Below the pieces are notes generated by a model that made no database searches, had not been told where the DNA came from, and saw only the letters and a list, made by a program, of their open reading frames with translations. Shown here piece by piece: positions 9,813 to 59,906 of a DNA stretch of 64,000 nt. The translations under genes were made by a program, and so were the position numbers. Numbering within the stretch: the first letter of the stretch is position 1; every line of letters begins with the position of its first letter. Source of the DNA: Pseudomonadota bacterium (GTDB lineage: Bacteria > Desulfobacterota > Binatia > Binatales > Binataceae); the NCBI GenBank assembly GCA_021324885.1, contig JAJPIF010000023.1, positions 62,001 to 126,000 on the forward strand, in the 5' to 3' direction.

Positions 9813-9923
9813 ATGGGTCATCGCCGATCGCTTCTTCCGGTTCCCCGGTAAACTGGTCAACGAGCGAGGTTATGTTGACGTCAGCAGTTTGAGCTTGGGC
9901 GCCGCGATGGGTAAGCTGTGCTT

Positions 9924-10223
9924 ATGAGCATACGCATTCTCTATTGCAAGGCTTGAGGCTACAAGGAGCGCGCGGTCGGTCTGGCCGCGTCATTGCAATC
10001 CCGCTTCGGCGAAACAGTCACCATCACGGAGGGAAGCCGCGGCCAGTTCGATGTGTTGTCCGGCGACACCCTGCTCTTTTCCAAAAAGGACTTCGGACGT
10101 TTCCCGAATTCCGGCGAGGTTGAAGAGCGCCTCTCGCTGCTGAAAAAGGGCGAGCCGTTAGCGCCACCCCAGCCTCGGCAGCAATGGTTCGTTTCGCGAT
10201 TGCTTTCGAGGCTCACCGGCTGA
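9924..10223 (+). CDS. SelW/Rdx-family selenoprotein (in-frame UGA as selenocysteine)
   Basis: Reading from the ATG at 9924, codon 11 is TGA (9954-9956) inside YCKAUGY, which is exactly the C-x-x-U redox motif of the SelW/SelT/SelH (Rdx) family. After the TGA the frame stays open to 10223 and continues with family features: a helix, ITEGSRGQFDV, LLFSKKDFGRFP and a final helix. The 99-residue product has the normal length plus a short tail. A hairpin like the fdhF SECIS follows the UGA (9970-9990). The protein would be a thioredoxin-fold thiol oxidoreductase. Gene finders call only the part after the UGA. SelA, SelB and SelC are not in the window. No strong ribosome site is visible. Confidence 0.88.
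9970..9990 (+). promoter_or_regulatory. SECIS-like hairpin for UGA recoding
   Basis: Starting 13 nt after the UGA, CGCGGTC (9971-9977) pairs without gaps with GGCCGCG (9983-9989), with one G-U pair inside, and G9970-U9990 adds a closing wobble. The five-base loop is GGUCU, the same bases as I recall in the loop of the E. coli fdhF SECIS read by SelB. Position, stem length and loop all fit a bacterial SECIS inside the coding region. Confidence 0.75.
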
Positions 10224-10354: not shown

Positions 10355-10400
10355 CCTTTACTTCTCTCCCTCCGGGAGAGACTGGAGTGAGGGGAGCAGG
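10355..10400. repeat. REP-like interspersed palindrome
   Basis: TCTCTCCC (10363-10370) and GGGAGAGA (10374-10381) form an 8-bp stem around TCC, followed by CTGGAGTGAGGGG. The CTCTCCC-TCC-GGGAGAG plus CTGGxGTGAGGG pattern is a common interspersed repeat in high-GC Gram-negative genomes. Only one copy is in this window, so repetition is inferred from general knowledge. Confidence 0.55.
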
Positions 10401-10425
10401 TTGCGGAAAAATTCTTTTTCCGCAA
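10401..10425. repeat. perfect 11-bp inverted repeat
   Basis: TTGCGGAAAAA (10401-10411) and TTTTTCCGCAA (10415-10425) are perfect reverse complements around TTC. On the plus strand the stem ends T-rich and could act as a weak bidirectional terminator; it might also be part of the adjacent REP-like unit. Confidence 0.6.
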
Positions 10426-34937: not shown

Positions 34938-36494
34938 TTGAAGAGAAAACAAGTGCTCGATTCGATCAACTCACCCCTGCGCATCGACAGCGTCGAATCG
35001 CCCGGCGGCGGGCTTATCGGCATGACGATTTGTCCGGGCAAAAAGTTCCGGCGGGGGCAAACCGGCGATTGGTACCGCGACCTCGACCTCGATATCAACG
35101 CGATTTCCCAATGGCGCGCCGATGCGGTTGTCACCCTGATTGAGCGGCACGAGTTCACCCTTCTGCGTGTTCCTGGATTAGGCGAAGCGGTGGAAGCGGC
35201 CGGCATCCAATGGCATCACCTGCCGATCAGGGATGGTTCCGTTCCGGATGATCTGTTCGAAACCCTATGGGTCTATTCGGGCCATCGCCTGCGCAGCATG
35301 CTCGCCGCGGGCGGCAGGGTGCTGGTCCATTGCCAGGGCGGATTGGGGCGCAGCGGGATGATCGCGGCGCGCTTGTTGGTCGAGATGGGGATAAAGGCGG
35401 ACGACGCAATCCGCCGCGTGCGAAATGCGCGGCCGGGCACGATTGAAACTTCGGCGCAGGAGGAATACGTGCGCGCGGTCCGGCGCCCACACATGCAACC
35501 GATTCTGACGGATCGAATCCTCGGAACTCTGCTGGGGGGCGCCGTCGGCGACGCGATGGGATACGCGGTCGAGTTCGATTCATGGAACGCGATCAGAGAT
35601 CGCTTCGGCGACGATGGAATCGTCGAGCCAATGGCGAATGACGGCGAAATCAGCGTCAGCGACGACACCCAGATGACGCTGTTCACGCTCGAAGGACTGC
35701 TGCGTTCCAAAAAAGAACTGGCGGCGCGTAACTTCGACAGCGTCATCGCAAGTATCAGACGGGCGTACCTGGATTGGCTCGACACTCAAGAGGGGGGCCG
35801 ATCCAGGCACGACCTGTCCGGCACCATCGCGGCCGATCCGCGGCTGCGCCGCGCGATGGCGCCGGGCACGACCTGCCTGAGCGCGCTGCGCGCCGGCGGG
35901 CGCGGAACAATGCAACGGCCCGCCAACGACAGCAAGGGATGCGGCGGGGTGATGCGCGTGGCGCCGATCGGACTGCTCGCGTCGAGTCCGGAAGACGCCG
36001 CTGAACTGGCCGCCCGCGCCGCCGCCCTGACCCATGGGCATCCCAGCGGCTATTGGAGCGCGGCAGCGATGGCCGCCATGGTTCGGATGTCACTGGACGG
36101 GAGCGAACCGGCCGAAGCCGCGCGGCGGGCAACCGCGATCATATCCGGCAAAAAAGGCGCAAAGGAAACCGTCGAAATGATCGATGCCGCGCTGAACGTC
36201 GCCAGTGCCGCGGCGCCCAATCATCGCCAGGCGATCGCGTTATTAGGCGATGGCGGCTGGTGCGGCCAGGACGCCCTGGCCATCGGCCTCTACAGCGCGC
36301 TGCGCGCGGAATCATTCCCCCAGGCATTATCAATCGCGGCCAACCACGACGGCGACAGCGACTCGACGGCGTCAATTGCGGGCCAACTGTACGGCGCATC
36401 GCACGGCCTCGCCGACTTACCCAACCAATGGATTCGCCGCCTCGACGTGCTGGAAATTTTATTGGGCCTGGTGAGGAAGGTTTTTAACTTCTAA
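34938..36494 (+). CDS. fusion of a dual-specificity protein phosphatase and an ADP-ribosylglycohydrolase
   Basis: 518 aa in two domains. Residues about 1-185 are a cysteine phosphatase with the P-loop HCQGGLGRSG: Cys132 and Arg138 of CX5R intact, general-acid region WHHLPIRDGSVPD upstream. Residues about 195-510 are a DraG/ARH fold: LGGAVGDAMGY, SDDTQMT (Asp242, Asp243, Thr244), NDSKGCGGVMRVAP, and HDGDSDSTASIAG (Asp473, Asp475) for the two-magnesium centre. Both active sites look functional. The TTG at 34938 follows GGAGGA by 7 nt; a TTG at 34896 is possible. It would remove phosphate and ADP-ribose groups; the targets are unknown. Confidence 0.9.
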   Translation: MKRKQVLDSINSPLRIDSVESPGGGLIGMTICPGKKFRRGQTGDWYRDLDLDINAISQWRADAVVTLIERHEFTLLRVPGLGEAVEAAGIQWHHLPIRDGSVPDDLFETLWVYSGHRLRSMLAAGGRVLVHCQGGLGRSGMIAARLLVEMGIKADDAIRRVRNARPGTIETSAQEEYVRAVRRPHMQPILTDRILGTLLGGAVGDAMGYAVEFDSWNAIRDRFGDDGIVEPMANDGEISVSDDTQMTLFTLEGLLRSKKELAARNFDSVIASIRRAYLDWLDTQEGGRSRHDLSGTIAADPRLRRAMAPGTTCLSALRAGGRGTMQRPANDSKGCGGVMRVAPIGLLASSPEDAAELAARAAALTHGHPSGYWSAAAMAAMVRMSLDGSEPAEAARRATAIISGKKGAKETVEMIDAALNVASAAAPNHRQAIALLGDGGWCGQDALAIGLYSALRAESFPQALSIAANHDGDSDSTASIAGQLYGASHGLADLPNQWIRRLDVLEILLGLVRKVFNF

Positions 36495-37144
36495 TCCCAC
36501 TCGGCCAATGCCTTGAGCAACTCGGCGGTTGCCCTGGCGGGGTCTTTGGCGCCCATAACCGCGCCGATTACGGCCACGCCGGCGGCGCCGGTGTCGTTCA
36601 GATCGGCGATTCGGGCCGGGGTGATGCCGCCCAGCGCGAAAACCGGAATTGACGCGGCGGCGCAGGCCGAGGCCAGCCCTTGCGTCCCGCTGGGGGCGGC
36701 GTAGGCGCCCTTGGAGATGGGTTCGAAGACCGGACCAAAGACCGCGAAATCCGCGCCGAGCCCCTCCGCCCGCGTGATCTCGCCGGCGTTGTGGGTTGAG
36801 GCGCCAATCAGTTTTGAAGGACCCAGCAATTTGCGCGCATCATCGGGACCGATTCCGTCGGCGGGCAGATGGACGCCGTCGGTGCCCGCGGCGAGCGCCA
36901 CGTCGATGCGCCCGTTGACCAGCAGCGGGACCCTGTACCGCCGGCAGATCGGACCCAGTTCGCCGGCCAGTTGAATCAGGGCGCGCCCGTCAAGGTCCTT
37001 CTCGCGCAACTGAACCGCGATCGGCGCAGGGCTTTCGATTTCGGCGGCGGCTTGCAGCGCGGTCTCGATCGTGTCGGCCAGCCCGCGCGCCGCGGCCAGC
37101 TTGCGGTCGGTGATCAGGTAGAGTTTGAAGTCAACTTTGGGCAT
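36491..37144 (-). CDS. thiE: thiamine-phosphate synthase
   Basis: 217 aa. LYLITDRKLAA begins the TIM barrel; QLREKDLDGRALIQLA, LLVNGRIDVALAAGTDGVHLPADG, GASTHNAGEITRAEGLGADFAVFGPVF and ALGGITPARI are the full ThiE set. It joins the pyrimidine and thiazole halves of thiamine. It is last in the leftward thiS-thiG-thiE set under the TPP riboswitch. Its stop overlaps the convergent phosphatase/ADP-ribosylglycohydrolase gene by 4 bp. In VNGRID the usual Asn-Asp is Gly-Arg, a minor variation. Confidence 0.93.
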   Translation of the reverse strand: MPKVDFKLYLITDRKLAAARGLADTIETALQAAAEIESPAPIAVQLREKDLDGRALIQLAGELGPICRRYRVPLLVNGRIDVALAAGTDGVHLPADGIGPDDARKLLGPSKLIGASTHNAGEITRAEGLGADFAVFGPVFEPISKGAYAAPSGTQGLASACAAASIPVFALGGITPARIADLNDTGAAGVAVIGAVMGAKDPARATAELLKALAEWD

Positions 37145-37275: not shown

Positions 37276-38052
37276 CTACTCGATCAACCCCGACAGCGGG
37301 CTGGAAGCGGTCGCGTAGAGCTTGCGCTCGATACGGCCGGCCAGGTAAGCGATGCGTCCGGCCTCCACCGCCATCCGCATCGCGTGGGCCATCGCGATCG
37401 GCTCGCGCGCGCCGGCTATTGCCGTGTTCATCAGCACCGCGTCGCATCCCAGTTCCATCGCCTGCGCCGCGTCCGAAGCGGTGCCGACGCCGGCGTCAAC
37501 CACCACCGGCACCTTGGCCTGCTCCAGGATGATGCGCAGGTTGTAGGGATTGCGGATTCCGAGACCGCTGCCGATCGGCGCCGCCAGCGGCATTACCGCG
37601 ACGCATCCAAGTTCCGCCAGGCGCAGGCAGGTGACCGGATCGTCGGTGATGTAAGGCATCACCTTGAACCCTTCCCTGACCAGCACGCGGGCGGCTTCGA
37701 TAGTGGCGGGAATGTCGGGGAAGAGCGTTTGCTGATCGCCGATTACTTCGAGTTTGACGAAATCGCTCACGCCGGTTTCGCGGGCCAGCCGCGCGGTGCG
37801 GATCGCTTCCTCGGCGCTGTAGCATCCGGCCGTGTTGGGCAGGATCATCCATCGCTGGGGGTCGAGAAAATCGAGCAGGTTTTCGCGGTTGCGATCGGTG
37901 ATATTGACGCGGCGCACCGCCACCGTGACAATTTCGGCGCCGCTGGCTTCAACCGCTTGGCGGGTCTCGGCGAAATCGCGGTACTTGCCGGTTCCGACGA
38001 TCAGCCGTGAGCGGAAAACGCGTCCCCCAAGTTCAAACTTGTCGTCCTGCAT
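37276..38052 (-). CDS. thiG: thiazole synthase
   Basis: About 258 aa. [12 protein letters not shown] near the N-terminus, then [40 protein letters not shown] (Schiff-base Lys), [16 protein letters not shown] and [30 protein letters not shown], all of ThiG. It builds the thiazole phosphate using sulfur from ThiS. The ATG at 38052 is preferred over a TTG at 38091 because homologues start just before this segment. It lies 39 bp after thiS. Confidence 0.94.
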
Positions 38053-38091
38053 GTCGATAATTATCTCCTCGCCGGGCAACGGCCGCGCCAA

Positions 38092-38295: not shown

Positions 38296-38417
38296 CAGCA
38301 GCGTTAATCAGCAGCGTTTATCGCCGGAACCCTGAAATTCAGCCCACGGCGTGGCCGGAGAAACCTGATCCGATGTGCGGGCCGCGGGAGACTTCAGGAA
38401 AATGGAGGGCAACTCGC

Positions 38418-38493
38418 GGCTTCCCTACGCCGGCATGACCCGGATCAGGTTCGAGGGGTTCACTCTCAGCGCGCCGGGCGCGCACCCCCAGCC
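38418..38493 (-). promoter_or_regulatory. TPP riboswitch (THI element)
   Basis: Read on the minus strand from 38493: GGCTGGGGGTGC, a GC-rich P3 arm, the conserved CTGAGA, then ACCCCTCGAACCTGATC, CGGGTCATGCCGGCGTAGGGAAGCC. These are the invariant blocks of the TPP aptamer; GGCT at the 5' end pairs with AGCC at the 3' end to close P1. It precedes thiS-thiG-thiE. The expression platform lies in the following 120 nt; no clear terminator with T-run is seen, so control of translation is likely. Confidence 0.95.
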
Positions 38494-38502
38494 TCTGATG
38501 TT

Positions 38503-48240: not shown

Positions 48241-48573
48241 TCAAGCGCCGGTGATCGGTTTGTCGGGTTCGCCCACGCAATACGCGCATCGGCAAAGCGC
48301 CCGCAATTGCGCCAGCGTGTAGATGGTCTCGTGGCCGTCGCGCCAATTGAGGAACACCGCAGCCTCGCCCAGACGTATCAATTGATGCAGACGGCGGCTG
48401 TCCTCGGCCAATTGCTGTGCGGCCTCGCCCCCGCAGGCGAGGCAAGGACAATGGCGGCGGAGACTGTCCAGGGGCAGGATGCTTTCGTGGCCGTCGCTCC
48501 AGTGCATCCCGATCGCGTAGCGCCCGACTTCGTTAAGGTCGCGTATCTGCAATGGGTGTGATGTCTGGGGCAT
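48241..48573 (-). CDS. tandem DUF971-like protein with Cys clusters
   Basis: 110 aa with two copies of the DUF971/GBBH-like N-terminal motif: YAIGMHWSDGHESILPLDSLRRHCPCLACGG and AVFLNWRDGHETIYTLAQLRALCRCAYCVGE. Each copy ends in CxCxxC. Single DUF971 domains occur next to Mrp/ApbC iron-sulfur carriers and in carnitine-pathway dioxygenases. Six Cys in two clusters suggests zinc or Fe-S binding. Located between a GNAT gene (9 bp away, convergent) and lpxL. Confidence 0.85.
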   Translation of the reverse strand: MPQTSHPLQIRDLNEVGRYAIGMHWSDGHESILPLDSLRRHCPCLACGGEAAQQLAEDSRRLHQLIRLGEAAVFLNWRDGHETIYTLAQLRALCRCAYCVGEPDKPITGA

Positions 48574-48626
48574 AGTCTCAGACTAAGACATGTGCGCGAC
48601 GGCCTCAACGGGGTTTGCGCGCCGAC

Positions 48627-59110: not shown

Positions 59111-59906
59111 GCTGGGCCTAATCGCAGGCAATGGCAGCTTTCCGCTGCTGGTGGCGCAGGCCGCCGCCCGCCATCAAATCGAGATCATCGCGGTCGCGCA
59201 TCTCAATGAAACCGACCGCGCCCTGGAGCGGTGGTGCGCTCGGATCACCTGGATCAAAGTTGGTGAACTGCAACGAATGATCGAGGCCTTCAGGAGCGCC
59301 GGCATCACCCGCGTCGCGATGGCGGGCGGGATCTCCAGAGCGCGTTTGCAGGATTCGTTTGCTCCCGACCAGCGCGCGCTCAAGATGCTTGCCGCACTGG
59401 GCAAGTTCAGCGATGACGCGGTGCTGCGCGGCGTCGCTGGCGAACTGGAAGCGGACGGTATCGCCGTGATCGATCCAATCTACCTGCTCGAAGGGGCCCT
59501 GGCGGACCAGGGTACGATGGCCGGGCCGCCACCCACCGATGCGCAGCTCAAGGATCTCGCGCTCGCTTTCGCGGTTACGCGATCGCTGGGGCCGTATGAC
59601 ATCGGGCAGGCGGTTGCGGTGCGCGACGGCGTGGTGGCAGCGGTTGAGGCGGTGGAAGGGACGGACGCCGCAATCCGGCGCGCCGCCTCCCTGTGCGGCC
59701 GTGGCCTGATCGTGGTCAAAGCCGCCAAAGCGGGCCAGGACCTCCGCTTCGACCGTCCCGCGATCGGTCCCGGCACGATCAAATTGCTCGCCGAGACCGG
59801 TGCGGCCGTGCTCGGTGTCGAGGCGGGGCGCACGATGATCCTCGAGCGCCAACACACCCTCGAATTGGCCAACGCCCATGCCATTACGGTTCATGGCCAT
59901 GCGTGA
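59103..59906 (+). CDS. lpxI: UDP-2,3-diacylglucosamine pyrophosphatase LpxI
   Basis: 267 aa DUF1009 protein. LGLIAGNGSFPLLVAQAA, AHLNETDRALE, VAMAGGISRARL, YDIGQAVAVRDGVVAAVEAVEGTDAAIRRA and VKAAKAGQDLRFDRPAIGPGTI are family blocks. It yields lipid X in place of LpxH. GTG start overlapping the lpxA stop by 8 bp. It overlaps the next gene too, so the lpxA-lpxI-Gfo/Idh genes are translationally coupled. Confidence 0.95.
   Translation: MTKLGLIAGNGSFPLLVAQAAARHQIEIIAVAHLNETDRALERWCARITWIKVGELQRMIEAFRSAGITRVAMAGGISRARLQDSFAPDQRALKMLAALGKFSDDAVLRGVAGELEADGIAVIDPIYLLEGALADQGTMAGPPPTDAQLKDLALAFAVTRSLGPYDIGQAVAVRDGVVAAVEAVEGTDAAIRRAASLCGRGLIVVKAAKAGQDLRFDRPAIGPGTIKLLAETGAAVLGVEAGRTMILERQHTLELANAHAITVHGHA

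Follow-up and report, generated by a model that had tools for sequence, protein, structure and literature searches.

In the 64,000-nucleotide stretch of DNA analyzed here (the window), we found a plus-strand reading frame that runs from an ATG (9924–9926) through nine codons to a TGA at codon 11 (9954–9956), and on through 88 codons to a terminal TGA (10221–10223). The features of this locus are as follows.

9889–9894, plus strand: -35-like hexamer TTGAGC; 27 of the 28 family members with a -10 have a TTG at a distance of 16–17 nt from it
9912–9917, plus strand: -10-like hexamer TAAGCT, 6 nt before the ATG; TANNNT in 28 of 37 family members
9924–10223, plus strand: very probable SelW/Rdx-family selenoprotein gene, 99 residues and a stop, with Sec at codon 11 in the read-through translation
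9945–9956, plus strand: predicted C-x-x-U redox motif, Cys8 (9945–9947), Lys9, Ala10, and Sec11 (TGA, 9954–9956)
9970–9990, plus strand: bacterial SECIS-type hairpin (predicted), stem 9970–9977/9983–9990, loop GGUCU at 9978–9982

Read through the internal TGA, the frame gives a product that begins MSIRILYCKAUGYKERAV and contains the stretch LLFSKKDFGRFP (full product: MSIRILYCKAUGYKERAVGLAASLQSRFGETVTITEGSRGQFDVLSGDTLLFSKKDFGRFPNSGEVEERLSLLKKGEPLAPPQPRQQWFVSRLLSRLTG). The read-through frame is matched by Pfam Rdx (PF10262) at 59.6 bits (gathering score 22.6, E 3.4e-16) and by TIGR02174 at 49.2 bits (cut-off 34.2), and since both matches exceed their cut-offs and cover residues 3–70, across the TGA, the gene is more than a product of chance. 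A SelW/Rdx selenoprotein hidden by an in-frame TGA is what the initial annotation had proposed, and these matches bear it out; its coordinates, its frame, and the YC-K-A-U-GY motif at codon 11 were all exact. The narrower model NF041051 (SelTWH_Campy equivalog) scored 71.2 bits, under its 88-bit cut-off, and we therefore keep the SelW protein out of that group. Both NCBIfam models were matched by all 66 aligned homologues at an E value of 0.001 or better, and Cys8 and residue 11 are invariant among these homologues when Sec is counted as Cys. If the TGA is not read through, the frame retains at most a 76-aa ORF that opens with a TTG at 9993, in line with the truncated 3' part that the initial annotation had anticipated, and simple gene calling would truncate the gene at the UGA. 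We judge 9924–10223 to encode a genuine SelW/Rdx-family selenoprotein, with a probability of about 0.96.

The SelW gene is solitary: a sulfatase-family gene lies 111 nt upstream and an amidohydrolase gene 339 nt downstream, with an MMPL-family transporter gene beyond the latter. Translations from two same-genus loci read as the same downstream pair, with different upstream genes. Between the SelW and amidohydrolase genes (window 10364–10425) lie two inverted repeats: CTCTCCCTCCGGGAGAG, and a second one that is palindromic around TTGCGGAAAAATTC. Exact matching across the window recovered each of them a single time; they are perhaps a terminator or a dispersed repeat. Elsewhere in the window, an ordinary TPP riboswitch (38405–38499, minus strand) lies upstream of minus-strand ORFs that by reading resemble thiG (37276–38091) and thiE (36491–37144).

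A selenocysteine system, implied by the gene as the initial annotation had pointed out, is indeed present in the genome that carries it (4.53 Mb, 30 contigs, 96% complete): we recovered selA (567.6 bits, cut-off 267.9), selB (374.5 bits, cut-off 242.25), and selD (376.4 bits, cut-off 125), together with a tRNA-SeC with anticodon tca that was called by ARAGORN and scored 70 bits with RF01852. A further RF01852 match above the cut-off in this genome is a tRNA-Ser, not a tRNA-Sec. The machinery bears on the possibility that the UGA specifies some other residue, Trp through a code change or Cys through suppression, for which there is no specific support, read-through alone looking identical in the DNA. 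UGA, however, also terminates the SelW gene itself (10221–10223) and, by reading, selD; the tRNA-Sec with its tca anticodon, selA, selB, and selD are all in place, and a SECIS-type hairpin comes next; and the homologues that lack the TGA have Cys at residue 11 in seven of eight cases. We consider decoding as a residue other than selenocysteine exceedingly improbable.

The same genome holds other in-frame TGA codons. Its selD is itself Sec-type, with an in-frame TGA in AAGUAGK (L010:1531–1533, contig C21), and an AhpC-TSA-family protein gene (L097, contig C24:20858–21226) has one in TPGUT, with a predicted hairpin after the TGA and a Shine-Dalgarno-like AGAGGAGG ahead of the likely ATG; by its sequence, the latter is a predicted peroxiredoxin-type selenoprotein gene. 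The match to the formate dehydrogenase alpha subunit (L093, contig C16:58437–60464) has no internal stop, so the Sec pathway is apparently not maintained for formate dehydrogenase. Scanning the window for TGA read-through (a hairpin plus a Sec/Cys-like motif) gave 17 candidates, including 9954. The candidate at 59904 looks like an ordinary stop after an apparently complete protein, which we take to be LpxI-type, and the remaining 15 were set aside, judged by eye only.

The gene is present in all three genus genomes and in 37 of 41 family genomes, spanning 16 of 17 genera, and each of the 37 encodes Cys at the position aligned to codon 8 and has TGA at the one aligned to codon 11. This aligned TGA is codon 13 in L034 and L042, whose starts precede by two codons, and additional stops in family homologues are the ends of shorter proteins. 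Across the class, 63 of 148 genomes were matched at 67 places, with TGA at 59, a Cys codon at 7, and CGT at 1 (L088, a weak match that is inside the 67-place count and outside the protein alignment and tree). Alignment with Sec- and Cys-type homologues, a check the initial annotation had suggested, thus places Sec at residue 11, or Cys at seven of the eight non-TGA places; decay around the TGA in relatives, which it had named as evidence against its reading, was looked for and not found, the frame being open in all 37 family homologues.

These data bear directly on whether a nonsense mutation or a sequencing error could have put the TGA into a Cys-type Rdx gene that is now dead or has been misread. 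A single base separates TGA from the Cys codons TGC and TGT, and Cys homologues do occur in the class, at 7 of the 67 places. A broken gene is nonetheless in effect already refuted, because the TGA is conserved throughout 16 genera, aligned in all 37 family homologues with one per genome. It is also contradicted by the open frame and by substitution patterns in the three genus genomes, where the synonymous rate exceeds the other-site rate, per site, on both sides of the TGA: pS was 0.49–0.67 and pN 0.04–0.21 over codons 1–10 (a rough figure, since ten codons are few), and pS was 0.38–0.61 and pN 0.07–0.21 over codons 12–80. With the Sec pathway present and the hairpin after the TGA retained, we give this explanation almost no weight. 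Another alternative is that the UGA mostly terminates, leaving a 10-residue regulatory peptide, with occasional read-through that senses selenium. Sec insertion in general competes with termination, and this UGA comes very early, both of which would suit such a role; against it, the remaining protein is constrained and has other invariant family residues, and it is 339 nt to the next ORF. We regard a regulatory peptide as very unlikely.

The distribution of the gene can be set beside that of the pathway. selA was found in 38 of the 41 family genomes. Two genomes, G004 (97% complete) and G008 (96%), are without SelW, selA, or selB above the cut-off; G010 and G012 have selA and selB and gave no match to SelW; and in G039, where SelW and selB are present, selA had no match, possibly through an assembly gap. 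The resulting selA/SelW table for the 41 genomes (36/2/1/2) gives a Fisher p of 0.02, ignoring relatedness. Sec-type SelW (37/41) and selA (38/41) are near-standard equipment in this uncultured bacterial family. A tree of Sec and Cys forms (82 columns, weak deep forks) gave no order for the origins of Sec and Cys. In two genomes from another family of the same class, G043 (C2:69018–73646) and G045 (C17:222569–227206), a Sec-type SelW has a Cys-type Rdx paralogue at a distance of no more than about 5 kb (loci L089, L090, L082, and L091).

Downstream of the TGA, where the initial annotation had not examined the sequence for a SECIS element, we also found a SECIS-type hairpin. It is predicted to fold as CGCGGUC-GGUCU-GGCCGCG plus one outer G-U pair, with the loop starting 22 nt past the UGA. 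Similar hairpins occur in most Sec-type relatives, and the loop G is invariant across the 59 TGA loci (57 distinct). The six core pairs are formed in 93.6% of cells, as compared with 15–53% after sliding by 1–3 columns; double-sided changes number 23 cells versus 7.3 in shuffles, and the covariation score is 0.265 versus 0.125. Two of five covariation measures were not above the shuffles (pairs that show a double-sided change, 2 versus 2.0; further pair types, 6 versus 5.4), and RNAalifold gave a weak consensus of 5 pairs at -2.42 kcal/mol. At the best covarying pair, alignment columns 21 and 33, 35 sequences have G-C and 15 have C-G, and both columns fall at the third position of codons that, by reading, mostly specify Ala.

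Codon choice within the hairpin is similarly biased. The Ser19 codon is AGT in all 33 family cases and in all 20 other Sec cases, versus 5 of 183 Ser codons (family) and 4 of 63 (other Sec) elsewhere in the same genes. A synonymous-codon test of the hairpin gave p 0.012 for the gene at 9924; under synonymous recoding, the family had a mean z of -1.87, with only 17 of 37 members reaching p 0.05 or less alone, and other Sec genes a mean z of -1.57, with 7 of 22 at p 0.05 or less. Low hairpin energy was absent from the non-Sec rows (z +0.39, 0 of 8, a "Cys" group that includes the CGT-bearing L088), and no SECIS-type hairpin was found in Cys homologues. Against dinucleotide shuffles, the hairpin at 9970–9990 is unexceptional over 45 nt (z -0.71, 48/200), and over 27 nt it gave z -1.54 (16/200), similar to the SECIS of E. 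coli fdhF (z -1.56, 12/200). Folding the whole 300-nt gene to minimum energy gave a structure that lacks the hairpin. By its own predicted fold, the hairpin is of the bacterial SECIS type: it follows closely on the UGA, and its small apical loop includes a G. The fdhF SECIS likewise has GGUCU at its tip (predicted loop GGUC), starting 19 nt past the UGA as compared with 22 nt for the SelW loop, although the stems differ: that of fdhF is longer and interrupted, whereas the SelW hairpin is a plain stem of 8 pairs.

The predicted structure agrees with the family assignment. AlphaFold2 gave a mean pLDDT of 86.9, with ten-residue blocks up to residue 80 at 89–96 and the C-terminal tail at 55–60, and a structure search with this model returned SelW-related crystal structures first, with mouse SelW at rank 23 (E 1.1e-3); as modeled, the fold is SelW-like and thioredoxin-like. 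By sequence search, the best solved relative was C17orf37 (2ljk, E 3.6e-5), followed by bacterial SelW-related proteins, and the SelW chain of 2npb was matched at E 0.025 by sequence alone. The Cys-type Rdx structures 2fa8, 2p0g, 2ojl, and 2obk have the same fold (TM-score 0.80–0.86 by target length) at 24–30% identity to the SelW protein; 2fa8 and 2p0g have CxxC at the site of its CxxU, and neither contains Sec.

Together, the machinery, the hairpin, and the conservation lead us to infer Sec insertion at codon 11. SelB-GTP carrying Sec-tRNA-Sec would bind the hairpin just past the codon-11 UGA, and the ribosome would put in selenocysteine there in place of terminating. The product would be a small thioredoxin-like protein in which Cys8 and Sec11, by analogy with the SelW family, most likely form a thiol/selenol redox centre. 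Its cycle would pass through a selenenyl-sulfide and is probably tied to glutathione or another thiol pool.

Translation of this gene may also begin in an unusual way. Upstream of the ATG, the order is TTGAGC, 17 nt, TAAGCT, 6 nt, ATG, and in the 28 family members that have the box, which come from 11 of 16 genera, the gap between TANNNT and the ATG is 6 nt in 21 genes and 7 nt in 7; shuffled upstream regions had TANNNT at a spacer of 6–7 in a mean of 1.0 and a maximum of 5. The -35 and -10 are separated by 17 nt in 25 of 27 members and by 16 nt in the other 2, and in 25 sequences the two hexamers are on average 73% and 75% identical, as compared with 33% for the intervening spacer. A Shine-Dalgarno-like 4-mer is found in none of the 28 genes with the -10 box versus 7 of the 9 without it (Fisher p 3.5e-6, ignoring relatedness). 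Sec-type relatives outside the family have the -10 box in 0 of 22 cases and a Shine-Dalgarno-like site in 18, and for Cys homologues the counts are 1 and 2 of 7. The ORF controls admitted every candidate start up to 150 nt from the longest-ORF start, and these starts were uncurated. Among neighbours of roughly 150 aa and longer at the family loci, 0 of 78 ORFs had the full promoter and 38 a Shine-Dalgarno-like site; among window ORFs of at least 200 aa, 1 of 48 had the -10 alone and 20 a Shine-Dalgarno-like site. Within the window, the -35/-10/ATG pattern had 2 matches versus 0.14 expected, the only other one being at 48571–48608 on the minus strand. Genome-wide, the pattern is not enriched (14 matches versus 12 in a reversed control), and these counts do not show leaderless genes to be common in this genome. 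The family-wide promoter counts are drawn from sequences that are related to one another.

A TAAGCT placed 6 nt before the ATG would put the transcription start at or beside the ATG, and this conserved promoter spacing, together with the lack of a Shine-Dalgarno site, points to an mRNA that probably is leaderless and starts at the ATG. Leaderless bacterial genes are described, in the text available from one study, as having a TANNNT that opens about 12 bp ahead of the start codon (PMC3160421); in the family's SelW genes the -10 opens 12–13 nt ahead of the ATG, the same box at the same distance. The gene could instead be a true selenoprotein gene with a leadered mRNA, the boxes being a regulator's site and the transcript a longer one without a Shine-Dalgarno sequence. 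A stricter consensus scan returned no promoter match, which favours that alternative, as against the sigma-70-like spacing, the published leaderless distance of the -10, and the restriction of Shine-Dalgarno-like sites to members without the box; we think a leadered mRNA unlikely.

On the leaderless reading, the gene would most likely have its own sigma-70-type promoter abutting the ATG, and a ribosome starting on the bare 5' end would reach the Sec codon as codon 11. We lean toward extending this to the uncultured family, in which SelW would be made from a leaderless mRNA with the SECIS hairpin starting 47 nt from the 5' end; 9 of the 37 members have no -10 box. That the arrangement is kept in 28 of 37 genes and 11 of 16 genera, and occurs in none of the 78 neighbours, suggests that it serves a purpose, for example sustaining Sec decoding under stress or in states that favour leaderless messages. 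If true, a selenoprotein is made here without a leader or a Shine-Dalgarno site, and the gene offers a natural test case for Sec insertion on ribosomes that start without a leader. In the titles, abstracts, and passages of the literature on leaderless mRNA and selenoproteins or SECIS elements that we consulted, no leaderless selenoprotein mRNA appears, and the probable leaderless mRNA is the most original and unexpected part of the finding.

The protein itself belongs to a well-known group. Sec-type SelW has long been known in bacteria, so the high novelty that the initial annotation attached to the gene is unsupported. In the excerpts available from these sources, bacterial Sec-type SelW was on record by 2005, when SelW-like proteins formed the largest selenoprotein family in the Sargasso Sea set, with 48 genes, the CxxU suggesting a redox function and earlier reports an interaction with glutathione (PMC1088965); they were among the most widespread selenoproteins in the Global Ocean Sampling data, with 427 genes (PMC2398784), are recorded in Geobacter sulfurreducens and Desulfotalea psychrophila (PMC1794560), and feature in a 2022 review (PMC9312934). 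For Campylobacter jejuni SelW (transcript CJnc60), the consulted text reports full-length translation by ribosome profiling and mass spectrometry (PMC11955535); that protein is likewise small and Sec-containing, its UGA read by tRNA-Sec, and the name of NF041051, under whose cut-off our protein falls, points to the C. jejuni SelW group. Genomes with leaderless genes have, in the available text, a few to tens of per cent such genes (PMC3160421), in contrast to 0 of 78 neighbours here. The marine SelW sets (PMC1088965, PMC2398784) match our gene in family and CxxU motif and, as far as the available passages describe, in a bacterial SECIS that directly follows the UGA and whose small apical loop contains a G; those earlier sets are mainly marine, whereas the gene described here belongs to an uncultured family and has a probable leaderless promoter.
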